A stretch of DNA of 64,000 nt from Rhizobium leguminosarum (lineage in GTDB: Bacteria > Pseudomonadota > Alphaproteobacteria > Rhizobiales > Rhizobiaceae): the NCBI RefSeq assembly GCF_017876795.1, contig NZ_JAGIOR010000004.1:62001-126000 (forward strand), read 5' to 3'. Shown piece by piece: positions 40,131-54,123 of this stretch. Position 1 is the first letter of the stretch, and the number at the start of each line of letters is the position of its first letter. Under the pieces are notes generated by a model. The model had not been told where the DNA came from. It saw only the letters and a program-made list of their open reading frames with translations, and made no database searches. The position numbers were made by a program, and so were the translations under genes.

Positions 40131-41786
40131 TCATTGTGCGGCCTTGATGCGAGCGGCATAGGCCCACGGCATCAGATCGTCGATGTCTTTGGCAAGGTGG
40201 CCATTGGCGAGACGTGTAAAGAGATCACACATATAGGCGTAGGGCTCCACGCCGTTCATTTTGCATGTGCCAATCAGGCTGGCGAACCGGGCCCAGTTAC
40301 GTCCGCCTTCATCATGGCCTGCAAAGAGCGCATTGCGGCGGTTCATGGCCGGGCGACGGATGGCATTTTCCACCAGGTTGGAATCGATATCGACGCATCC
40401 GTCATCAAGGAACAGCCGAAAGCCATCTTGCCGTTTCAGCATATACGCCAGGGCGACGCCGAGATCGGATTTGCGTGATACACGCGCAGCCTGAGCCGCG
40501 ATCCAGGTGAAGAACTCGTCCACCAGCGGCAGAGACAGGGCCTGTCGAACTGCCCGGCGATGTTCGGGATCTGAACCTCGGATACTGTCTTCGATCTTGT
40601 AGAGGGCGGCGATACGAACCAGTGCCTCATCAACGATGGGCGATCCGCTCTTTGGCGTGGCCTTGATCAGCTTTCTGCGCCCGTGCGCCCAACAGAAAGC
40701 CAGCTTCAGCGGAGCGCCGCCGATACGATCCGACGCAGCGAGATGAGAGTAACCGCCGTAGGCATCCACCTGGATTGTGCCGTTGAACCCGTCGAGGATT
40801 TCAGCGGCATATTCTCCTTTACGCCCGGGCCGATAATGGAACACCACACCTGACGCAGCAGAGCCATTCCAGCCGCGGTCGTCGCGCAGTACGGCCCAGA
40901 GATAGCCGGTCTTCGTCTTGCCTCGCCCCGGATCCAGTACCGGAGCTGTTGTCTCGTCGACATAGAGCCTTGTGCTGCCCAAAAGCAGCCGCTTGGCCAT
41001 GTGGTCGACCACCGGTGCGATCGCAGCACCCGTGCGCCCCATCCAATCGGCAAGGACCGTGCGGTCGATCGGCACACCGTGTCGCGCCATGACCTCGGCC
41101 TGACGGTTCAGCGGCATGTGTTCCGAATGCTTGGAGACGGCAATCTCCGCCAGAAGGGCTTCGGTCGGCCAGCTCCCTTCCAGCAGATGTGCCGGCGCTC
41201 TGGCCTGGACGACGCCCGTTCGACCCTTGGGGCATACGTATTTCGGGCGGATCGTGACGATCACCTCGTAGCGTGCCGGAATACGGTCGAGTCGTTCCGT
41301 CCGATCCTCGCCGATCCGCACCATGTTGCCGCAACCGCAGGGACAAACGATGCTCTCGGGCTCGATCACATTCTCGACCCGCGGCAGATGTTCGGGCAGT
41401 GCACGAGCCTTGCGCTCCTTGCGAGAAGGGGTTTTCGCGGGGTCATTCGAGGCGCTGGCTTCGATCTTTTTCTCGACGGCGGCGATCCGCGCCTGTGTTT
41501 CGGCAATCGCCGTTTCAAGATCTTCCAGCGCCAGTTCCATCTGCGCCGGATCGAGCTTTTCCGACTTCGGACCGAACTTCGTGCGCCGATAGTCGTGAAC
41601 CTGCCCCTCAAGCTTCTCGATCAGTTCCTTCAGCTCGGCGATGAACGCGTCCTTTTCGGCAACGACCGCCTGCTCATGCTGACGTGCAGCGCGCTCGACC
41701 GACAACTCGAACTGCATCGCCGCAAAGGCTTTGACAACCTCTGGCGGAAGGTCCGGAAACAGGCTGAGATCAAGGCGCGACGACAT
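40131..41786 (-). CDS. tnpC: IS66 transposase TnpC
   Basis: The 551-residue product has an N-terminal coiled coil (KDAFIAELKELIEKLEGQ), the TnpC zinc-binding segment CPCGCGNMVRIGEDRTERL, and the DDE catalytic part with YVDETTAPVLDPGRGKTKTG, VDAYGGYSHL and the C-terminal NLVENAIRRPAMNRRNALFA that carries the Glu. Full length and in frame. It follows tnpB by about 60 bp. Confidence 0.95.
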   Translation of the reverse strand: MSSRLDLSLFPDLPPEVVKAFAAMQFELSVERAARQHEQAVVAEKDAFIAELKELIEKLEGQVHDYRRTKFGPKSEKLDPAQMELALEDLETAIAETQARIAAVEKKIEASASNDPAKTPSRKERKARALPEHLPRVENVIEPESIVCPCGCGNMVRIGEDRTERLDRIPARYEVIVTIRPKYVCPKGRTGVVQARAPAHLLEGSWPTEALLAEIAVSKHSEHMPLNRQAEVMARHGVPIDRTVLADWMGRTGAAIAPVVDHMAKRLLLGSTRLYVDETTAPVLDPGRGKTKTGYLWAVLRDDRGWNGSAASGVVFHYRPGRKGEYAAEILDGFNGTIQVDAYGGYSHLAASDRIGGAPLKLAFCWAHGRRKLIKATPKSGSPIVDEALVRIAALYKIEDSIRGSDPEHRRAVRQALSLPLVDEFFTWIAAQAARVSRKSDLGVALAYMLKRQDGFRLFLDDGCVDIDSNLVENAIRRPAMNRRNALFAGHDEGGRNWARFASLIGTCKMNGVEPYAYMCDLFTRLANGHLAKDIDDLMPWAYAARIKAAQ

Positions 41787-41848
41787 GCGCCCTTATAGCA
41801 AGGCAGCACAAAAAAGCCAAATAAAACAATGTAAGTAAGGTCAGATAT

Positions 41849-44839: not shown

Positions 44840-46012
44840 ATGGTCACTTTGGCGAGTATGGAACCTCTGCTTCCCGATAGCAACAGGGAATTGGAAGACT
44901 TGGCGATTGAACTAACCTCTACCGCCAGCCGTTTTGCCGCACGACTGCACCCCATTATGCGTGGGTCGGTGGGCGATCTGGTGCGCTCTATGAACTGCTA
45001 TTACTCAAATCTTATCGAAGGACATAATACGCTTCCTATTGATATCGATCGCGCAATGGCTGGCGATTATGCGCGTGAACCGGAAAAGCGAAATCTTCAA
45101 CTCGAGGCTCGTGCTCATATTGAGGTGCAGCAGCTAATTGATAGAAACGAGATGCCGTTTCCTGTGTTGTCGCTCGACGGCATTTGCTGGATGCATGGGG
45201 AATTCTGCCGGCGGCTTCCGGATGAGCTGTTGATTGTCGGCCATCCTGATACGGGCGAAGAGATCAGGATGGTTCCCGGGCAGTTGCGAACCCGGCACGT
45301 AAAAGTCGGTGAGCACGTGGCCCCGGAGCCGGAAATGATCGAACCACTCATTGCAAGGTTCGTTGATGGCTATTCATTTAAGATGCTCTCCAAGCTGCAG
45401 AGAATCATCGGAGTTGGCGCATCTCACCACCGTCTCGCATGGATCCACCCGTTCTTCGACGGAAACGGACGTGTTTCACGGCTATTTTCGCATGCTCTCT
45501 TGCGAGACCTGGGAATTGGCTCGGAACTGTGGTCGGTATCCCGCGGTCTTGCGAGAAATGTTTCGGATTACAAGCGCCTGCTCGCCCAAGCCGATCAGCC
45601 GAGGCGTGGTGATCTCGATGGACGTGGCAATCTCACGCAAGCCGGCTTGACGGAATTTACCGCCTTCTTCTTGTCGTGTTGCCTGGACCAGGTTACCTTC
45701 ATGGAGGAACTCCTTAAGCCGGAGGAGCTGCTAAACCGCGTAGAGGTCTGGTGTAATGAGGAGGTCCAAATGCAACGACTTCCAAAGGGCAGTTGGCCTC
45801 TATTGCGCGAAGCCATCCTGACAGGCGAATTTGCACGCTCGCAGGTGCAGGCGCTGACAGGGTACCAAGAGCGCCAGGCGCGGACGGTCCTATCCAGCCT
45901 GCTAGACATTAGTGTGCTCACATCGCCAAGCCCGAAGGGCAAAGTCCGTCTCGGCTTTCCGGTCGATATAATAGAGCGGTGGCTTCCGCGGCTTTACCCA
46001 GCCGTCCGTTAG
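44840..46012 (+). CDS. Fic/DOC family protein (class II) with winged-helix-like tail
   Basis: The Fic core HPFFDGNGRVSRLF is complete, and the inhibitory motif YYSNLIEGHN ([S/T]xxxE[G/N]) precedes it near residue 58, so it is a class II Fic protein. After the core come a helical region and a C-terminal winged-helix-like part (RSQVQALTGYQERQARTVLS) often seen in this Fic subgroup. Expected activity is AMP transfer to a protein target; the target is not known. Start ATG 44840 or 44858. It stands just left of the nested IS66 element and is undamaged. It is not a close copy of the Fic protein at 36.8 kb. Confidence 0.92.
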   Translation: MVTLASMEPLLPDSNRELEDLAIELTSTASRFAARLHPIMRGSVGDLVRSMNCYYSNLIEGHNTLPIDIDRAMAGDYAREPEKRNLQLEARAHIEVQQLIDRNEMPFPVLSLDGICWMHGEFCRRLPDELLIVGHPDTGEEIRMVPGQLRTRHVKVGEHVAPEPEMIEPLIARFVDGYSFKMLSKLQRIIGVGASHHRLAWIHPFFDGNGRVSRLFSHALLRDLGIGSELWSVSRGLARNVSDYKRLLAQADQPRRGDLDGRGNLTQAGLTEFTAFFLSCCLDQVTFMEELLKPEELLNRVEVWCNEEVQMQRLPKGSWPLLREAILTGEFARSQVQALTGYQERQARTVLSSLLDISVLTSPSPKGKVRLGFPVDIIERWLPRLYPAVR

Positions 46013-46114
46013 ATTAGCAGGCGATGTCGAAGCCATTTGAATAGCGACTTTTGCGACAGAACGGTAAGCGCGAATTTCTGCGCACCTTCTGAAGCGCGGT
46101 GCTCTCAGGCATGA

Positions 46115-46138
46115 AGTGTCCACCAAAATAGGTGGACA
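46115..46138. repeat. Inverted repeat in the IS66 leader
   Basis: GTGTCCACC (46115-46123) and GGTGGACAC (46130-46138) are perfect arms around AAAATA, ending seven bases before the tnpA start. Its position suits an operator or a hairpin that limits tnpA translation. Confidence 0.6.
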
Positions 46139-46145
46139 CCAAATC

Positions 46146-46571
46146 ATGGATGAAGATGCTCCTAAACTGCAGGTGCGGCTTGTTGGTCGCGACGGCCGCC
46201 GTCGATATGACCCTGCCTCTCGAGACCAGCTTGTCGCAGCGTGTTTAGAGCCCGGCGTTTCGGTCTCTCGGCTGGCGCTGGAACACGGCGTGAATGCTAA
46301 TCTTGTTCGGAAGTGGATGAAGAAGGCCAGAGAGGAGCGTCCTTTGCCTGTGGTCTCGCCGTTCGTTCCGGTTCAGATTGCTCCGGATATGCACTCGGCT
46401 GCTGCCGGCAATTTACTGATGAAGACCGAGCCATTGGGCAAGCGCTCTCATGCATCCAACAAGGTGAGCGCGTTGCTGCCGAACGGGGTTAGCCTGACGG
46501 TCGAGTGCGACGATTTGGATGGGCTGACAGCGATCATAGGAGCGTTGGGTCATGTTCAGACTGGGCGCTGA
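46146..46571 (+). CDS. tnpA: IS66 accessory protein TnpA
   Basis: The product starts MDEDAPKLQVRLVGRDGRRR and has the helix-turn-helix LVAACLEPGVSVSRLALEHG, VNANLVRKWMKKARE. The end (ALLPNGVSLTVECDDLDGLT) is IS66-like. It overlaps tnpB by 20 nt. It differs clearly from the TnpA at 42.2 kb, so the two IS66 elements are not copies of each other. Confidence 0.92.
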   Translation: MDEDAPKLQVRLVGRDGRRRYDPASRDQLVAACLEPGVSVSRLALEHGVNANLVRKWMKKAREERPLPVVSPFVPVQIAPDMHSAAAGNLLMKTEPLGKRSHASNKVSALLPNGVSLTVECDDLDGLTAIIGALGHVQTGR

Positions 46572-46905
46572 TCTCAAGGTCTACCTGCATCGCGAACCGA
46601 TCGACTTTCGTGCGGGCATCAACAGCCTTGCGGTCCTGGTCCAGGAGACGATGGCGCTGGATCCCTTTGCGCCTGCGGTCTTTGCCTTTTGCAATCGCCG
46701 TCGCGACCGGATGAAGCTCCTGTTCTTTGATCGGTCCGGTTTTGTGATGGTCCTGAAGAAATTGACGGAAGACAGGTTCAGATGGCCACGCCGAGAGACT
46801 GCGGTGGTGACGCTTTCGACCGAGCAGCTTCACTGGATACTTGACGGCATCGATATCGACGCGATGATCCGCCATCCGGTGCGGCAATATGAGATCGCCG
46901 GTTAA
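46552..46905 (+). CDS. tnpB: IS66 accessory protein TnpB
   Basis: The 117-residue product follows the Orf2 pattern: KVYLHREPIDFRAGINSLAV, PAVFAFCNRRRDRMKLLFFD, RSGFVMVLKKLTEDRFRWPR. Intact and overlapping tnpA, as usual in IS66. Confidence 0.94.
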   Translation: MFRLGADLKVYLHREPIDFRAGINSLAVLVQETMALDPFAPAVFAFCNRRRDRMKLLFFDRSGFVMVLKKLTEDRFRWPRRETAVVTLSTEQLHWILDGIDIDAMIRHPVRQYEIAG

Positions 46906-48365
46906 AGGTGGCGAATTGAGCTGTTGACGCAAAGGGGCGGTTCAGATTCAAGAATCGGATGGTACGAACCGGTGATCCTGATGTTGCAGCGCTGATGGCG
47001 CAGTTGGCGGCAAATGCTGCCGAAATCGCCGCGCTTAAAGCCGAGAAGGAAGCGCTCTCGCGCCGGGTCGTCAAGCTGGAAGAAGAGCTGGCACTGGCTA
47101 GGCTCCATCGCTTTGCCCCACGCAGCGAAAAGCATATTGATCGCCTCTTCAACGAAGCCGAAGAGGCTGCAGACGAAGATGACAGTGGCGACGGTGATGA
47201 CGTCGTCGATCTCCCGGACACAGGCCTGCCGCCGGTCGAGAGCAGCGCGGGAAAGAAGCGGGGCCGCAGGCCTCTGCCGAAAGACTTGCCGCGTGAGCGT
47301 GTCGAATATGACCTTCCCAACGATCAGAAGGCCTGCCCCTGCTGCGATAGTCAAATGCATCGCATGGGCGAGGCCGTTACCGAGCAGCTCCATATCGAGG
47401 TCAAGGCAAAGGTCCTGCAGAATGTGCGGTTCAAGTATGCTTGCCGCCATTGTGACCGCACCGGGATCAACACGCCCGTCGTGATCGCCCCGATGCCGAC
47501 GCAGCCCCTGCCGGGGAGCATCGCGACGGCCTCGACACTGGCCTTCGCGCTCGTCCACAAGTACGTCGATGGCACACCGCTCTACCGCGTGGCGCAGACA
47601 TTCGAGCGGGCCGGCGTTCCGATCAGCCGTGGCGCCCTTGCTCACTGGGTCATCGGTTCGAGCGAAAAGCATCTGCATCGCATCTATGATGCACTGAAGC
47701 TGCGGCTCCGATCGCAGCCTCTCATTCATGGTGATGAGACAACCGTTCAAGTCCTCAAGGAAAAGGACAAGGAGGCCACCAGCACATCGTATATGTGGGC
47801 GTATCGCAGCGGCGAGGACAGCGACCAGCCGGTCGTGCTTCTCGATTATCAGCCGGGCCGCGGCCAGATCCACCCGCAGACCTTCCTCGGTGACTACCGC
47901 GGCATATTGGTGAGCGATGGCTACACCGCGTGGCGCACATTACATAGCGCAACCCATGTTGGATGCATGGCTCATTCTCGGCGGCGCTTCGTCGAAGCCC
48001 TCAAGACCAGAAAGAAAGGTGGCGGCCCGCCGGAGCAAGCTCTCAGGTTCTTCGAGCAGCTCTACCGGATCGAAAGGAAGGCGCGAGACGAAAAGCCCGA
48101 CGTCGGTGAAACGCAGGCCGACTGCATTCACCGCTTCCGGCAACAGCACAGCTTGCCTGTCCTGAACGCCCTGAAGACGTGGCTCGACGATATCGCGCCG
48201 AAGGTCGTGCCGGACACCAAGCTCGGCGATGCTGTGTCCTACACCCTGAACCAATGGGACTACCTGACACGCTACACCAGCGACGGCAGGATGCCGATCG
48301 ATAACAACATTCTGGAACGCGACATCAGAGTTTTTGCCGGACCTGAGTCATTGTGCACTCCTTCT

Positions 48366-50435
48366 CTAAGTGTCTGTAAACATTGGAAGCGTCTCCGTGT
48401 CAGTTGTGCGACACGGGCGGCCCTTTCGGGCTATAGCCGCTTGGACCGTCGCCGAAGCCAGGTCGCTGGCGCGGATTTGATACGGCGCGCCGGGAACCAC
48501 CTGCTCGGCAGACAGCACGTTCGTCTTGATCAGGTGGCGTATCCGATGATTGGTCACGCCCAAAACCGTCGCAGCCTCTGTCATGGTCAGCCATTCGCCG
48601 TCCTTGTCCGCTGATTTGTACGCGTGGATTGCGCGAACGCGCCTCACAGAAGCGACACGGTGCGCAGTCCAGGTTTTTCCTTGCCCCGTGGGCATGCCCA
48701 TTCGATTAAGCGATGCGGCGATATGTTCATCGGACCAGCGTCCAGCCATGCTGCGCATCACCGCCAAAGCATCCTCGGTGGTGGCACAGCCGTGTTCGCC
48801 GCTCTGAGGCTTGCGAACTTTCAACTCCGAGTGCTTGCCGCCTTTCCAATGAATCGTCAGCACCACATCTCGAACCGCATCGTCGACATCGACAACAATG
48901 TCGGCGATCAACGTACGCAAGAGCTGCTGGCGCACACGCATGCTCACATCGGGCGAATCCCAGGCAGCCTGTAGATTGTCTGCAAGGTTGGCAAAGGTGC
49001 CCGGATCAACCTCGATGGTTGAAGGACTTTCGGCAGGCTTGCGCACTTCCAGATCACGCACGCGGCGTAGCGCAGCTTCCCAATTCTTCTCAAGCTGCGC
49101 GGCTATGAGACGGTTGTCGGGATCGCATGCTGCGTAGCGGCGCTCGGCAAGGCTGGCCTCGTAGCGAGCCTGTTGTAGCTCCAAGTCGTGAATGTGGCGC
49201 TGGTCTTCTTGGCGCTCTCGGTGCATCCGCTCTGCTTCAAAGGTCGCTTCGATCGCTAACGGTTCTACCGCGCGCAACAACTCGCGCGCAACCGCCGCAT
49301 CGACCTTCAGGCCGCCGAACGTCATGCAACGGGGCAAGCCCATCATCAGATTCTGTTTGTCGCAGCGATAGACAGGACTTTGTGGATTGCCAGTATAGGC
49401 AACACTCAGCCGCCGCCCACACCGTCCGCAGGTTAGGAGACCCGATAATAGCGCTTTGCCGCCGCGGCCCGATTTGGTCCCGCCCGAGCGGCCATAATTA
49501 TTGAGCGCCAATTGCTGTTGGTTGCGCTCGTACTCGTCCCAACTGATGTAACCTTCGTGATGGTCCCGGATCATCACCTCCCAGGTGCCGACGGGCTTGC
49601 CATGCCCATAGCTGCGACGCGCTCGTCCATCAACGATGGCAGTTCGCTTCTCGCTCTTCCCATAGACGTAGACGCCGGCGTAGAAGGGGTTTTTGAGGAT
49701 GCCGATAACATTGCGATAACGGACTGGCGTCCAGACGAAGCTGGTCATGCGACCTTCATCCGACGGTCGCGGGAAGTGGATCTGATCTTTCGTCATCGAT
49801 AGCAGCACCTGACGCGCACTTCCAAGCTCGTGGAAACGGGCGAATATGGATCGGATCACGTCTTGCAGACGCAGATCGGGGTCCAGTCCAAGCCCCGCCT
49901 CGCGATGCCAAATGTAGCCGAACGGAACGGAAAGTCGCAATTCGCCGCGCCGCGCTTTCGATCTGGCGGCGTCGAGCATGCGGGCTCTCAGCACGCCCAG
50001 TTCGAACTCGCTGATACTGCCCTTCATCCCCAGCAGCAGACGATCATTGGGCCGACAGGGATTGTAGATACCGTCGTGATCTATGACGCGGGCTTCAACA
50101 AGGCCGCATAGTTCGAGCAGATGGTGCCAGTCGCGGCCGTTACGTGCGAGGCGTGAGGCGTCGAAGCAAAAAACGGCACCAACTTTGCCGGCGCACAGCA
50201 GGGCGACGAGACGATCGAAGCCGGGTCGCGCGACCGTTCCGCTGGCGGAGCGCCCCAGGTCGTCATCAATGACCTCAATGTCGATAAAGCCGCGTTGTCG
50301 CGCGACGTCAACAAGATCGTACTGTCGTCGCTGGCCTTCCAGATTGGTCATCACCTGCGACTGCGTGGATTGCCGTACGTAAACGATGGCCTTGCGTGCG
50401 AGTAACGCTGCCGGCATTAAATCAGTGCTGGTCAT
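48366..50435 (-). CDS. Large serine recombinase
   Basis: The 689-residue product has the resolvase catalytic domain (residues about 15-150) with the nucleophile Ser in IVYVRQSTQSQV and the arginine motifs DDLGRSASG and ASRLARNGRDW. A recombinase domain follows, then a zinc ribbon (LLTCGRCGRRLSVAY...YRCDKQ), a coiled-coil (HRERQEDQRHIHDLELQQAR) and a C-terminal helix-turn-helix of the excisionase type (WLTMTEAATVLGVTNHRIRH). It cuts and rejoins DNA at short core sites and should mobilise this element. The start overlaps the small gene upstream by 14 nt. Confidence 0.93.
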   Translation of the reverse strand: MTSTDLMPAALLARKAIVYVRQSTQSQVMTNLEGQRRQYDLVDVARQRGFIDIEVIDDDLGRSASGTVARPGFDRLVALLCAGKVGAVFCFDASRLARNGRDWHHLLELCGLVEARVIDHDGIYNPCRPNDRLLLGMKGSISEFELGVLRARMLDAARSKARRGELRLSVPFGYIWHREAGLGLDPDLRLQDVIRSIFARFHELGSARQVLLSMTKDQIHFPRPSDEGRMTSFVWTPVRYRNVIGILKNPFYAGVYVYGKSEKRTAIVDGRARRSYGHGKPVGTWEVMIRDHHEGYISWDEYERNQQQLALNNYGRSGGTKSGRGGKALLSGLLTCGRCGRRLSVAYTGNPQSPVYRCDKQNLMMGLPRCMTFGGLKVDAAVARELLRAVEPLAIEATFEAERMHRERQEDQRHIHDLELQQARYEASLAERRYAACDPDNRLIAAQLEKNWEAALRRVRDLEVRKPAESPSTIEVDPGTFANLADNLQAAWDSPDVSMRVRQQLLRTLIADIVVDVDDAVRDVVLTIHWKGGKHSELKVRKPQSGEHGCATTEDALAVMRSMAGRWSDEHIAASLNRMGMPTGQGKTWTAHRVASVRRVRAIHAYKSADKDGEWLTMTEAATVLGVTNHRIRHLIKTNVLSAEQVVPGAPYQIRASDLASATVQAAIARKGRPCRTTDTETLPMFTDT

Positions 50436-50601
50436 CGTTGAGCTCCTCGACGACCAGTCCGGCCGCCTGCATCAGCAGGCAGGCCAGTGTCGATATCGCC
50501 GTCTTGCGATCCTTGTCGCTCAGTCCGTCGAGCGTCCGGGTTTTGAATATCAGGTTGAGTTGCCGGCCTGACGCCGGCACCAGCGTATTGCGGGATCTCA
50601 T
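50422..50601 (-). CDS. Small recombinase-associated protein
   Basis: The 59-residue product (MRSRNTLVPASGRQLNLIFK, TRTLDGLSDKDRKTAISTLA, CLLMQAAGLVVEELNDDQH) is mostly helical and ends inside the recombinase start, so it is translationally coupled to it. A longer start at 50631 is possible. A role as a helper or directionality factor is a guess from its position; I recognise no family. Confidence 0.6.
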   Translation of the reverse strand: MRSRNTLVPASGRQLNLIFKTRTLDGLSDKDRKTAISTLACLLMQAAGLVVEELNDDQH

Positions 50602-50917
50602 CGTCTTCCTCCTGAGTGATTCTACGTCCACCTCGGAAGAGTGATGCCTTGTCGCCGCCGGTGACCAGCCTGTTCAGTTCGATCAGCGCCGCAAGATCGA
50701 CGCGTGGCGTTCCCATGGTCATGCCGCCGCACACCACAGGATCAGTCATCCATCCCGAAATCGAGACCACGACACCTGTCGGTCCCATGACCTTTAGAAA
50801 CCGGCCTGTCGCTCGTTGTTCGACACGGCGAATGGAGACCCTCTGGCCGAAATACGGATGCCAGCGGTAATGGACCTCGACTTCATCGCCGACATGGGCA
50901 GAATGAACGGGGCATTG
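50432..50917 (-). CDS. DUF5372-like element-associated protein, start unclear
   Basis: The minus frame from the very edge of the element reads QCPVHSAHVGDEVEVHYRWH, PYFGQRVSIRRVEQRATGRF, LKVMGPTGVVVSISGWMTDP, VVCGGMTMGTPRVDLAALIE. This resembles the DUF5372-type proteins that accompany transposons and recombinases. No start codon lies before ATG 50788 inside the element, so the N-terminus is either cut off or was supplied by flanking DNA. The last 40 codons overlap the small gene in another frame and are probably not meaningful. Confidence 0.5.
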   Translation of the reverse strand, partial: QCPVHSAHVGDEVEVHYRWHPYFGQRVSIRRVEQRATGRFLKVMGPTGVVVSISGWMTDPVVCGGMTMGTPRVDLAALIELNRLVTGGDKASLFRGGRRITQEEDDEIPQYAGAGVRPATQPDIQNPDARRTERQGSQDGDIDTGLPADAGGRTGRRGAQR

Positions 50918-51646
50918 CGACCGGAAGAAAATCGTGGCTGTTCAGCGACACCACTGACGGAGCCAAGGCCAGCGCCGTGATCTACAGTCTGATGCTCACT
51001 TGCCGCGCCTGCGGGATCGACCCACTCACCTGGCTGCGCCATGTGCTAACTGAGCTGCCGAAGCGCGACGAAGCGGCCGACATCGTCGACCTGCTACCGT
51101 TCAACTTCTCCAAAACCGCGGCGCACTAACAGAGCCGGATATCGCCACTAATGCGAGGGCGGTTCAGCGGTGCCGCAGCCGTCAATGCGCATGGAAAATC
51201 GCGCTTAGTGCGGCTGCAAAGCCGGTGAAAGATAGTTGATGAAAGTTCAATACGGAGAAGAAGTGGCGAATCACTCTGACCCCGAGTCATGCGGGGCACA
51301 TCGCGAGGTGTGCGTCGAAGCGTTGACAGGGGAAACCGGCAGGCCGGCCATAGAGCCGCGAAATGATTCATTCGGGATGCCGACGCTGTTAAGCGAAGCG
51401 GAAGGCAACACGGTGCATGGCGTCAATCGCAAGCCATGCCCCGATCCCGCGCGGTCGGAGACCCTGTGCATGCCGGGAAGTCTTTCATACGGAAGCAGCG
51501 AGATCTCATCAGTGTCCAGTGCAAATGGACTGGACGGGACTGGGAAGGTCGTTGACCACAATCCAGTCATCCACGCTGATGAGAAGTCGGATACGCCCAT
51601 AGTACCGCAGAAGTTGCCGAACAAGGGAGATGATCCTGCGGAGGCA

Positions 51647-52951
51647 ATGGAGGGAAGGGGTGTAATCGGAGGGAACGTCTTTGAAACTCCAGCGTGCCGG
51701 ACACAGAGCCGGATCAAACACGCTTCGATGGGTATCGAGGGCGTACGGGAAGCCGCCAGACGGGACCCGAAGTTGCGTTTCACGGCGCTGATGCACCACA
51801 TCACTCCGACGCTATTGGTGGAGAGCTTCCATGCGCTCCGCAAGCAGGCGGCGAGCGGCGTGGATGGCGTGACGTGGTACGACTATGAGATGATACTCGA
51901 AGGGCGCGTGCACGAACTACACCGGGAGATTCAATCTGGTGCATATCGTGCACAACCGTCCCGACGGGTCTACATTCCGAAGAATGACGGAAGACTCCGT
52001 CCCCTCGGCATTGCAGCGTTGGAAGAAAAGGTCGTGCAAATGGCCGTATCCACGGTCCTGAACGCGATCTATGAGCAAGACTTCCTGGGCTTCTCATACG
52101 GGTTCCGACAAGGAAGGGGGCAGCATGACGCGCTGGACGCCTTGTGGGTTGGGATCGACAAGCGGAAGATCAACTGGATACTGGACGCGGATATTCGCTC
52201 GTTTTACGATGAAATCGATCACGAGTGGATGGTTCGTTTCCTGTCGCATCGAGTGGGTGACCGCCGGCTGATACGTCTGATCCACAAATGGCTGAAAGCG
52301 GGCACGATTGAGGATGGCCGCCGCGTCGCATCAACGCGAGGAACCCCTCAAGGCTCTGTAATTAGCCCCGTGCTATCGAATATCTACCTGCATTACGCAT
52401 TGGATTTATGGGTCCAGCAATGGCGTACTCGAAATGCTAAAGGCGACGTGATCATTGTACGTTATGCCGATGACAGCGTGATTGGGTTCCAGTACGAAGG
52501 AGAGGCGCAGCGCTTCCTGCAAGCATTGCGGGAGCGTCTCGCACAATTTGGCTTGCAACTACACCCGGATAAGACGCGGCTAATACGCTTTGGGCGGTAT
52601 GCTGCGCGACAATGCCGGGAGCGTGGTATCCGCAAGCCAGAAACCTTCGACTTTCTGGGGTTCACGCATTGCTGCGGCAGGCGTCGCAATGATGGAGGCT
52701 TCAAGATCGTCCGTTTGACGATCAAGAAGCGCATGCGCACGACGCTGACGACCATTCGGGAAACGCTCATGCGGCGACGCCATGAACCAGTGGCAGTGGT
52801 AGGTCGATGGCTACGGCAAGTGTTACAGGGGTATTTGAACTACCATGCGGTGCCAGACAATCTACGACGATTGGGAGGGTTCCGCTGGGAAGTTGGTCGC
52901 GCTTGGCGACACGCTTTAATGCGTCGAAGCCAGCGAAACCGCATGTCTTGA
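51647..52951 (+). CDS. ltrA: Group II intron reverse transcriptase/maturase, C-terminus frameshifted
   Basis: The frame is open from 51236, but the part before 51647 lies in the ribozyme; MEGRGVIGGNVFETPACRTQ fits the usual start of this family. RT blocks are clear: RVYIPKNDGRLRPLGIAALE, AIYEQDFLGFSYGFRQGRGQ, WILDADIRSFYDEIDHEWM, TPQGSVISPVLSNIYL and the catalytic VRYADD. Domain X follows (GRWLRQVLQGYLNYHAVPDN). The frame ends at 52951 after RSQRNRMS; a shifted frame continues DRFQRLLRKYLPPCRLLHPH, PDARFTVT, the normal tail. A loss of about 2 nt at tcttgatcg explains this. Reverse transcriptase may still fold; DNA-binding and target entry may be impaired. Confidence 0.88.
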   Translation: MEGRGVIGGNVFETPACRTQSRIKHASMGIEGVREAARRDPKLRFTALMHHITPTLLVESFHALRKQAASGVDGVTWYDYEMILEGRVHELHREIQSGAYRAQPSRRVYIPKNDGRLRPLGIAALEEKVVQMAVSTVLNAIYEQDFLGFSYGFRQGRGQHDALDALWVGIDKRKINWILDADIRSFYDEIDHEWMVRFLSHRVGDRRLIRLIHKWLKAGTIEDGRRVASTRGTPQGSVISPVLSNIYLHYALDLWVQQWRTRNAKGDVIIVRYADDSVIGFQYEGEAQRFLQALRERLAQFGLQLHPDKTRLIRFGRYAARQCRERGIRKPETFDFLGFTHCCGRRRNDGGFKIVRLTIKKRMRTTLTTIRETLMRRRHEPVAVVGRWLRQVLQGYLNYHAVPDNLRRLGGFRWEVGRAWRHALMRRSQRNRMS

Positions 52952-53044
52952 TCGTTTCCAAAGACTGCTTCGCAAATACCTGCCACCATGTCGGCTGTTG
53001 CATCCGCATCCAGATGCTCGGTTCACCGTCACAACATCCGATAG

Positions 53045-53078
53045 GAGCCGTATGCGGTAGTTCCGCACGTACGGATCT
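53045..53078 (+). ncRNA. Group II intron domain V
   Basis: The 34-nt hairpin GAGCCGTATGCGG-tagtt-CCGCACGTACGGATC has the catalytic AGC-like triad region at its base and the two-base bulge typical of domain V. It marks the ribozyme core and fixes the intron orientation as plus. Confidence 0.85.
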
Positions 53079-53443
53079 GGCCGGGGGGCGATGGGCAACC
53101 ATCGTCCCTACCGGGACCACAGAACGCGGCTTCATGATTGCACAAGAGCCTGCCGTTGGAAGCGTAAGGAGCGGGGCAGTCGGTCCCGCTTCCCCTTCGG
53201 GTAACTCAGTTGAAGCTCCTGCGGCTGCCCTGGGTCCGCTCCTTGCGCGTCGAGAATTCCTGAAATCCCGGCCCTTGGCCGGCGCTATTCTGGTTTCTCC
53301 AATATTCTTCATGTTTGCAGGATCACGCCTGCCTGCTGTCAGTCGCGCAGCTTGCGACCGCTACCCGCGAGCTGCTGCATCTTGCAATTCCGATCTATGC
53401 GGACTAAATGTGGTTACGTAACTACGAATGCGGGAGGCTTGCG

Positions 53444-53698
53444 ATGACCGTCACCACGCTTTCAGGCCGGGAGCTCAATCAGGACCTTGGCCGCGCAAAG
53501 CGGGCCACCAAGGATGGGCCTGTCATCATCACTGACAGGGGACGGCCTGCGCATGTCCTTTTGTCGTTCGAGGAGTACAAGCGGCTTACCGGCAAAATGC
53601 GGACGCTTGGTGAGATGCGCGCCGCACCGGGGGCGGAAGATGTTGACTTGCCCCTCCTGCAGCGCACGGAACATGCCCGGCCGGTCGATCTGTCTTGA
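53444..53698 (+). CDS. Phd/YefM-family antitoxin
   Basis: The 84-residue product (MTVTTLSGRELNQDLGRAKR, DGPVIITDRGRPAHVLLSFE, EYKRLTGK) has the standard prevent-host-death fold pattern; the tail PLLQRTEHARPVDLS would bind the toxin. GGGAGG precedes ATG 53444. Its TGA overlaps the ATG of the PIN toxin by one base. It lies about 325 bp beyond the nested IS66 end. Confidence 0.9.
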   Translation: MTVTTLSGRELNQDLGRAKRATKDGPVIITDRGRPAHVLLSFEEYKRLTGKMRTLGEMRAAPGAEDVDLPLLQRTEHARPVDLS

Positions 53699-54123
53699 TG
53701 CTATTGCTCGATACCAATGTCGTCTCCGAACTGCGCAAGGCTACGAGCGGCAAGGCTGATCCCAATGTTGTGGTCTGGAACGAAACCGTCGATCCGGCCG
53801 AAACCTTCATTTCATCGGTCGTCCTGCATGAACTGGAGATTGGCGTTCGGCTGGTGGAGCATAATGATGCAGCCGCCGGAAAGGTGCTGCGCAACTGGCT
53901 GGAAAATACCGTTCTCACTGCGTTTTCCGGCCGAATCCTGCCTCTGGACCAGGTGGCGGCAGTTCAGACGGCCCAATGGCATGTGCCTAATCCCAAGCCG
54001 ATCAATGACGCCTATATTGCGGCGACGGCATTCACTCGCCGTATGACGCTGGTCACGCGCAATATCAAAGATTTCGAGGGCATCGGAGTCGCACTCGTGA
54101 ATCCGTGGAATCTCCCGACATAG
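53698..54123 (+). CDS. VapC/FitB-type PIN-domain toxin
   Basis: The PIN metal-binding residues are visible in MLLLDTNVVSELRK, SSVVLHELEIGV and KPINDAYIAATA with LVTRNIKDFEG. The 141-residue size and order suit FitB/VapC ribonucleases. The start is set at ATG 53698, directly on the antitoxin stop (TGATG). No damage is seen, so this pair should be functional. Confidence 0.92.
   Translation: MLLLDTNVVSELRKATSGKADPNVVVWNETVDPAETFISSVVLHELEIGVRLVEHNDAAAGKVLRNWLENTVLTAFSGRILPLDQVAAVQTAQWHVPNPKPINDAYIAATAFTRRMTLVTRNIKDFEGIGVALVNPWNLPT

Follow-up and report, generated by a model that had tools for sequence, protein, structure and literature searches.

The window analysed here is a stretch of 64,000 nucleotides of Rhizobium leguminosarum DNA (assembly GCF_017876795.1, contig NZ_JAGIOR010000004.1, positions 62,001 to 126,000 of the forward strand), which lies on a 424.7-kb contig within a 7.58-Mb genome. 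It contains an insertion sequence (IS) of the IS66 family interrupted by two mobile elements of different types: an element encoding a large serine recombinase, which splits the transposase gene tnpC, and a group II intron, which splits the right terminal inverted repeat (IRR). The comparison with related loci, designated below by L numbers, indicates that both inserts belong to families inserting at fixed sites of IS66 elements, and that the recombinase element probably carries its attachment site inside its own first gene, orf1.

The interrupted IS66 element

The IS66 spans positions 46064-53118. Its left end begins with GTAAGCG at 46064, and its right end, CGCTTAC, is cut between the A at 51207 and the C at 53118. 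Both ends had been recognised in a preliminary description of this DNA, although the first base was placed there at 46063 and the target-site duplication was read as 7 bp. The duplication flanking the interrupted element, ACAGAACG, is 8 bp long, which is the normal length for IS66, and 8-bp duplications are likewise present at two other IS66 loci, L156 and L107. The tnpA, tnpB and first tnpC parts carry IS66 domains in Pfam and NCBIfam, and the second tnpC part was placed by tblastn. The tnpC frame stops after codon 460 (...ERDIRVFA) and restarts 2581 bp further on at TGRKSWLF...; the insertion codon lies directly after a motif with what we presume to be the catalytic glutamate.

The preliminary description had expected that the removal of both inserts would leave a normal IS66, and it had named an uninterrupted relative as the comparison on which its reading depended. 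Without the inserts the element is 2564 bp long, and an uninterrupted IS66 of 2558 bp with the same ends and an 8-bp duplication, AGAGAATC, was found in Rhizobium sp. T1473 (L156); the two are 87.6% identical over the first 1900 bp. The IS66 copy at L107 carries the intron and lacks the recombinase element, the copy at L156 carries neither, and two plasmids described below differ by the recombinase element. The proposed sequence of events, with the IS66 in place before two unrelated types of element landed in it, agrees with these loci, although it is incomplete, since the landings are a site-specific habit of whole families. The three nested layers of the preliminary description, however, reduce to two levels, because the inserts lie side by side in one IS66. 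It is plausible that the IS66 is frozen in place, as its tnpC frame is broken and its right end is displaced by 1.9 kb; the two inserts would thus immobilise it. The coordinates of all features are collected in Table 1.

Table 1. Features of the interrupted IS66 and its two inserts, in window positions
Feature	Position	Strand	Basis
Target-site duplication, left copy ACAGAACG	46056..46063		sequence
IS66 left portion (left inverted repeat, tnpA, tnpB, 5' part of tnpC)	46064..48337	+	ends agree with uninterrupted relative L156
tnpA (HTH_Tnp_1; NCBIfam IS66_ISRel24_TnpA)	46116..46571	+	domain matches
tnpB (TnpB_IS66)	46552..46905	+	domain matches
tnpC, first 460 codons (DDE_Tnp_IS66), broken after ...ERDIRVFA	46959..48337	+	domain match and comparison
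Left copy of the 2-bp crossover core (GC)	48336..48337		junction comparison
Serine-recombinase element interior, 2579 bp (2581 with one core)	48338..50916	-	junctions and filled/empty pair
orf1 5' piece, immediately behind the recombinase stop: ATG and the 11 nt leading to the core	48338..48351	-	end-join comparison
Shine-Dalgarno-like AAGGAG serving the orf1 ATG	48358..48363	-	sequence
Large serine recombinase, 689 aa (Resolvase, Recombinase, Zn_ribbon_recom)	48366..50435	-	Pfam/NCBIfam
orf2, 69 aa, overlapping the recombinase start	50422..50631	-	list of open reading frames
orf1 body, no start codon of its own beside the junction; conserved part ~50640-50917	50432..50917	-	join comparison, model
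Right copy of the 2-bp crossover core (GC)	50917..50918		junction comparison
IS66 right portion: 3' part of tnpC (to 51129) and IRR minus its last base	50919..51207	+	comparison
Group II intron (GTGCG...GGGAC), inserted after GCGCTTA of the IRR	51208..53117	+	Rfam and junctions
Intron-encoded reverse transcriptase/maturase frame (RVT_1; group_II_RT_mat)	51236..52951	+	Pfam/NCBIfam
Candidate exon-binding site 1 (EBS1) TAAGCG, complementary to exon -6 to -1 (CGCTTA)	51390..51395	+	sequence
Last IRR base (C), parted from the rest by the intron	53118..53118	+	sequence
Target-site duplication, right copy ACAGAACG	53119..53126		sequence

Target sites of the two inserts

The preliminary description had correctly reported the splitting of tnpC by a recombinase element, to which it gave a length of 2580 bp. 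The length of 2581 bp, that is 2579 bp and one copy of a 2-bp core, is taken from a natural pair of filled and empty sites on plasmids of Sinorhizobium sp. CCBAU 05631 (L216) and S. fredii CCBAU 83666 (L217). One 2581-bp insertion parts two blocks, of 5393 and 5387 bp, over which the plasmids agree at 99.96% and 99.98%. The tnpC of L216 is itself frame-shifted, and therefore the target need not be functional. The catalytic-type residues Ser23, Arg95 and Arg98 were present in all 75 full-length copies and relatives of the recombinase that were aligned, and Arg21 in 74 of them; the C-terminal region gave weak HTH_17/excisionase-like matches at about residues 610-660. Four full copies of the element, together with fragments, were found in the source genome.

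A search of GTDB contigs with the recombinase yielded 109 relatives, of which 79 distinct loci were kept. Profiles of both tnpC parts were run against the flanks of these loci, the four source-genome copies, the two plasmids and 48 loci drawn from two additional genome samples. At a recombinase identity of at least 58%, tnpC was found at the exact junction in 67 of the 73 GTDB loci (44 antisense on both sides, 2 sense on both sides and 21 on one side); the IS66s concerned are between 25% and 100% alike. Among the six uncalled loci, short or degraded traces of the same peptide can be read in four (L035, L081, L096, L104) and none in two (L076, L080). The same junction was found in three of the four full source-genome copies (at L211 on one side only) and in 16 of 20 loci of the further samples, with three misses and one uninformative locus; the species of these samples overlap with the GTDB set. 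None of the 34 relatives below 58% identity lay at the tnpC codon used by the window element. According to the source-record labels, the loci derive from what we take to be Alpha-, Beta- and Gammaproteobacteria, along with a few metagenome bins named otherwise. The two ends of the element carry the same dinucleotide in 55 of 68 readable loci (45 GC, 5 GG, 3 GT, 1 TG and 1 AC).

The intron, 1910 bp long, cuts the IRR one base before its end, as the preliminary description had it for a group II intron in the right repeat. Its ribozyme matches Rfam RF02005 over model positions 1-225 of 225 (188.7 bits, E 2.4e-55), and the intron begins with GTGCG and ends with AC. The maturase matches TIGR04416 with 344 bits, and no endonuclease domain was found among the domain matches of the intron protein. 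The maturase frame comprises 571 codons, compared with 608 in the other full source-genome copy and in R. leguminosarum, and its C-terminus is frame-shifted; because of this shortened frame, the window intron may depend on the intact copy, L020, for its mobility. A single perfect 6-nt complement, a candidate EBS1, lies at intron nucleotide 183, where about 0.13 would be expected by chance in 520 nt, and no pairing between EBS2 and the intron-binding site IBS2 was found by exact 6-mers.

The source genome holds two full copies of the intron and one interrupted copy. The latter (L021/L022, source-genome contig C1, 1752457-1756993) is an intron at the left end of an IS66, split by an insertion of about 2.6 kb. 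Moreover, four 86-bp pieces of the intron 3' end, 93% identical (L023-L026, contigs C6, C4, C1 and C1), probably lie inside another repeat, since their flanking sequence is shared.

Among plasmid records, 69 matched the intron, 32 of them with a cover of at least 80%. Junctions were read at 16 Rhizobium/Sinorhizobium loci from these 32, at two Pseudomonas loci of lower cover and at three loci from an earlier search. At each of the 23 rhizobial junctions read, those of the source genome among them, the intron is preceded by GCGCTTA of an IS66-type terminal repeat; nine belong to the tnpC end, 13 to the tnpA end and one (L142) to an end that was not assigned. Twelve of the tnpA-end calls rest on an adjacent tnpA or tnpB, and L021 was assigned because it matches the left end; L153 is a second occurrence of the locus that L106 represents in a sister strain. 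Of 21 readable cases, 19 have C as the base after the intron and two, both of the same locus, have T. Introns occupy both ends of one IS66 in S. fredii CCBAU 83666, as they do at both L216 and L217. One Pseudomonas relative (L154, 72%) lies at the tnpA end of an IS66, and no IS66 gene was seen upstream of the other (L155). This intron was absent from the 73 GTDB loci of the recombinase element within the fetched stretches, many of which do not cover an entire IS66.

These results argue for one IS66 copy colonised by two specialised parasites. The serine-recombinase element would insert by recombination with a 2-bp overlap into one conserved codon of IS66 tnpC, and the group II intron would home to the terminal inverted repeat of IS66, at either end. 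The site-specific parasitism of IS66 by both elements is firmly supported, and the recombinase itself would perform integration and excision, with a circular intermediate.

Two other explanations of the nesting have to be weighed. The recombinase might be a passenger that arose once inside an IS66 and was since carried along by composite transposition, never inserting again. The constant position and usual orientation would fit such an origin, as would the weak correlation between recombinase and host identity (r = 0.38). The hosts, however, are too diverse for it: those of 37 loci fall into 24 clusters when grouped at 80% identity, and 57 of 90 locus pairs whose recombinases are at least 94% identical sit in IS66s less than 50% identical (median host identity over the 90 pairs 0.41, range 0.29-1.00). 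Because of this diversity, the element seems to have entered different IS66s many times. A single origin is also opposed by the element-sized difference between near-identical plasmids, by the occurrence of both orientations and by the four source-genome copies, which are 96.8-100% identical at different sites, and we regard it as very improbable. Very little credit can be given to opportunistic nesting, in which an abundant and dispensable IS66 is hit without any specific targeting. IS66 is indeed common in rhizobial plasmids (the left part of the interrupted copy matches 168 records), and one copy of the element lies off target, but the use of the same codon and 2-bp core in nearly all loci, along with the same base in every rhizobial intron junction, is hardly compatible with chance.

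Certain observations nevertheless weigh against strict site-specific insertion of the recombinase element into tnpC. One of the four full source-genome copies, L212 (contig C1, ~4.44 Mb), lies outside IS66, with GC cores at both ends; its neighbours, by reading, are an open reading frame (ORF) resembling a flavin mononucleotide (FMN)-dependent dehydrogenase and an MFS-like ORF. In 13 of the 68 loci the two ends do not have the same core; the difference is one base in 12 (L044-L047, L050, L062, L072, L081, L084, L088, L106, L187) and two in L074. Most of these mismatches could reflect the segregation, at replication, of a 2-nt overlap with one mismatched base, and decay or rearrangement could also produce them; L072 is rearranged on one side. 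Finally, the antisense orientation prevails over the sense one by 63 to 4 in the GTDB loci, 12 to 4 in the further samples and 3 to 0 in the source genome, a strong bias given that the usual GC core is palindromic.

The probable attachment site inside orf1

On its coding strand the element shows, in order, the recombinase stop (48366), AAGGAG, an ATG (48351), 11 nt and the core. The opposite end opens in the middle of the orf1 frame with no start codon near, and joining of the two ends yields a single ORF. The joining was carried out on 65 loci, with three Brucella-like loci excluded, and the core was located by a rule consistent with the reading frames of IS66. The distance from ATG to core is 14 nt in every locus, and the joined ORF reaches at least 90 codons in 59 of the 65, compared with 4 or 1 after a displacement of the join by one or two bases; the short ones are L053, L056, L072, L078, L081 and L087. 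A Shine-Dalgarno-like motif stands ahead of the ATG in 35 of 43 dereplicated loci. In the integrated state, by comparison, a stop is reached ahead of any in-frame start in 25 of the 43, and such a motif accompanies a start in none of them. Differences at codon positions 1, 2 and 3 (0.21/0.17/0.54 in codons 15-50 and 0.28/0.16/0.50 in codons 51-90) are typical of coding sequence.

Proteins with the joined N-terminal length also occur in databases. The protein searches gave 300 distinct relatives among the matches listed, which in one search were 120 of 185, and 208 of the 300 were found with an HSAH/HCAH motif. The predicted joined proteins have nine residues before this motif, and the same length occurs in seven of these 208. 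Two of the seven (P0184, P0193) equal predicted N-termini in all nine residues, two (P0102, P0221) in the first five and two (P0026, P0075) in the first three, and P0156 agrees in none of these; the predicted first five residues were found in none of the other 201. The seven proteins can be read as coming from sequenced DNA with the joined gene, in a circle or in tandem, and they do not amount to proof of a circle. In the plasmid search with orf1, most of the 40 matches listed start at residue 6 and a few at residue 1.

The best of five structure models of orf1 had a mean predicted local distance difference test score (pLDDT) of 75 and a predicted template modelling score (pTM) of 0.57, with a pLDDT of 57-63 in the other four. 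It shows four strands and helices, and from the order of these elements alone the predicted protein was taken for a small SH3-like fold. No Pfam match was found for orf1 or orf2 of the window element. DUF5372 (PF17342) was considered for orf1 and rejected; the window orf1 did not match it, and the orf1 of one distant relative did (L202, E 1.5e-9).

According to the explanation we favour, the attachment site lies within orf1, so that integration would part the ribosome-binding site, the ATG and the first four codons from the body of the gene, and excision as a circle would rejoin them in frame. As integration splits orf1 and the circle rejoins it, the full protein would be expected from the circle only. 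That the split orf1 is joined in a circle is well supported by the sequence comparisons, and the protein may be a circle-specific accessory factor, perhaps favouring re-integration.

Several points speak against this account. The 59 long joined ORFs are not independent confirmations, because the loci are related and the distance from ATG to core is fixed by the core-locating rule. Codons 1-14 show no clear excess of third-position differences, and orf1 has no Pfam match of its own. No circle junction was found in 297 family genomes, 217 fetched loci or viral contigs, with a strict search pattern of rhizobium-like form.

It might also be that orf1 is not split by design, the Shine-Dalgarno motif, the ATG and the start of the body being recombinase-binding arms, with translation beginning inside the body or in the flank. 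Such a role may also account for the conservation of the 5' piece and of the codons with which the body opens, and the arms are conserved as DNA over codons 6-14. Likewise, the flank supplies an in-frame ATG, GTG or TTG in 18 of the 43 loci, so orf1 could sometimes be translated while integrated, and many database entries begin in the flank. None of the flank starts, however, is preceded by the Shine-Dalgarno-like motif that accompanies the ATG of the element; the two relatives targeting IS21 and IS110 likewise stay in frame at the join, and seven proteins have the joined N-terminal length. Binding arms without a split gene are thus an unlikely explanation. A more serious doubt concerns these seven proteins, which may stem from tandem copies or assembly artefacts rather than from excised circles. 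P0102 lies on a contig of 41,978 bases, where a tandem array is likelier than a free circle. On the other hand, the contigs of P0193 and P0221 measure 2,626 and 2,731 bases, nearly the length of one element, and tandem copies would still hold the same joined gene. We regard this origin as a minority possibility, though one to be reckoned with.

Comparison of sequences thus shows where the two inserts land and that these sites recur, and it shows the pair of filled and empty plasmids, the joining of orf1 in frame and the existence of natural proteins of the joined type. The whole explanation, with two specialised parasites of IS66 and a split orf1 in one of them, is considered highly probable.

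Wider family, known systems and significance

Several relatives of the recombinase at 33-50% identity also lie inside IS genes. The flank frames of 37 low-identity loci were read, and 14 loci, mostly with transposase-like flanks, were chosen by eye for Pfam. Twelve of the 14 have one of the following domains in the flank: IstB in L093, L182, L189 and L200, IS110 transposase in L170, L174 and L191, an IS3-type integrase core in L171, L172, L173 and L180, and tyrosine integrase in L175. In L203 Pfam found nothing, and in L196 helix-turn-helix domains only. A scan of all 37 loci for TnpB or shifted TnpC profiles at the junction gave L177, L178, L188, L208, L209 and L210; an unsplit tnpB lies near L201 and L207.

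Clearly split targets with both halves present are the IstB of L189 (profile positions 3-101 and 98-220, at Walker A), the IS110 transposase of L170 (PGVG/PITA) and, by reading, L171 (DYN/DHRPH). The join that restores the target motif also sets orf1 in frame in L189 and L170, with an ATG-to-core distance of 14 nt (14 or 15 in L170). No join restored the target motif in L172, and the rule was ambiguous in L171, L173 and L188, so only L189 and L170 count as tested.

Two further observations concern IS66 genes. A relative 43% identical to the window recombinase (L188) splits tnpC about 11 codons downstream of the site used by the window clade. A sister element in the source genome, with a recombinase 45-47% identical, occurs in near-identical copies at IS66 tnpB junctions on contigs C5, C6 and C1 (L208, L209 and L210, respectively); tnpB lies on one side only in L208 and L210, and L209 has N-terminal halves of tnpB on both sides.

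Within this family, each of several clades would use as its target a conserved motif in the transposase or helper gene of an IS. Specialisation of a superfamily on transposase genes is likely, judging by a partial, hand-picked sample; most of the distant relatives examined with Pfam had been chosen for transposase-like flanks, which tells against too broad a claim on the wider family. We lean slightly towards a still wider reading, namely an undescribed superfamily of minimal serine-recombinase elements, clade-tuned to IS motifs (IS66 tnpC and tnpB, IS21 istB, IS3, IS110), with a circle-only gene as a state sensor, that would act as reversible off-switches of insertion sequences. A literature search restricted to open-licence papers listed no description of recombinase elements specialised on the transposase genes of IS66 or of other elements, which is weak evidence of absence. 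A phage origin of the element was rejected: 50,697 phage records gave 133 weak partial recombinase matches, none covering 80% of the protein, and IMG/VR viral contigs contained no relatives.

In its Resolvase, Recombinase and zinc-ribbon architecture and its 2-bp crossover core, the element resembles those of large serine recombinases such as YokA of SP-beta, which was among the four solved sequences found by phmmer (9dxh, E 2.2e-5); this recombinase is also known as SprA. In contrast to the SP-beta type, the element is about 2.6 kb long with no phage genes seen, targets an IS transposase codon, has its attachment site inside its own orf1 and possesses an extra C-terminal region with a weak HTH_17 match. 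The best NCBIfam match is XisF of the fdxN element (NF041201, 97.6 bits, below the 375-bit cut-off). The fdxN element and other intragenic elements leave their host gene by excision. Like the fdxN element, the present one interrupts a protein-coding gene, but here the host gene is the transposase of another mobile element, and there is no evidence of developmental excision. Phages with integration-dependent immunity and SSV-type integrases have the attachment site inside a gene of their own, so that, as in the present element, integration splits the gene and the circle would hold it whole. Unlike in those systems, the split gene here encodes a small protein and not a repressor or an integrase, and it is split at the fifth codon, with the Shine-Dalgarno motif and ATG at the far end.

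The host element resembles the IS66 family (ISRm2-like) in its tnpA, tnpB and tnpC genes, GTAAGCG...CGCTTAC ends and 8-bp duplication, and differs from it in being interrupted twice. RmInt2 is reported to use both inverted repeats of ISRm17 and to be present in four copies on pSymA of strain GR4 (PMC5894124); the present intron likewise targets both terminal repeats of an insertion sequence. ISRm17, however, is an ISNCY/ISDol1 element and not an IS66 (PMC10194956). Moreover, as the GR4 plasmid pRmeGR4c was part of the collection searched and is not among the 32 records with a cover of at least 80%, the present intron appears, by plasmid-record cover, not to be RmInt2.

Elsewhere in the window, a second IS66 at 40155-41792 (minus strand) is uninterrupted, with an open tnpC of 553 codons, and is about 31% identical to the interrupted one. 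A gene of the Fic/DOC family (44840-46012) lies immediately to the left of the interrupted IS66, and two small genes resembling, by reading, an antitoxin and a PIN-type toxin (53408-54123) lie immediately to its right.

For annotation, these results advise caution, as a broken IS66 transposase beside a 'recombinase family protein' in rhizobia can represent two halves and an insert, and the start codons of orf1 in integrated copies are likely to be mis-called. If the proposed explanation is true, the serine recombinases of this family would offer varied natural target motifs in protein-coding genes, useful for comparing target recognition, and orf1 would illustrate cleanly how an intact or broken gene can indicate whether its element is integrated. 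Insertion sequences would then have specialised parasites that switch their transposase genes off and perhaps, by precise excision, on again, which would constitute a testable control of IS load in genomes.

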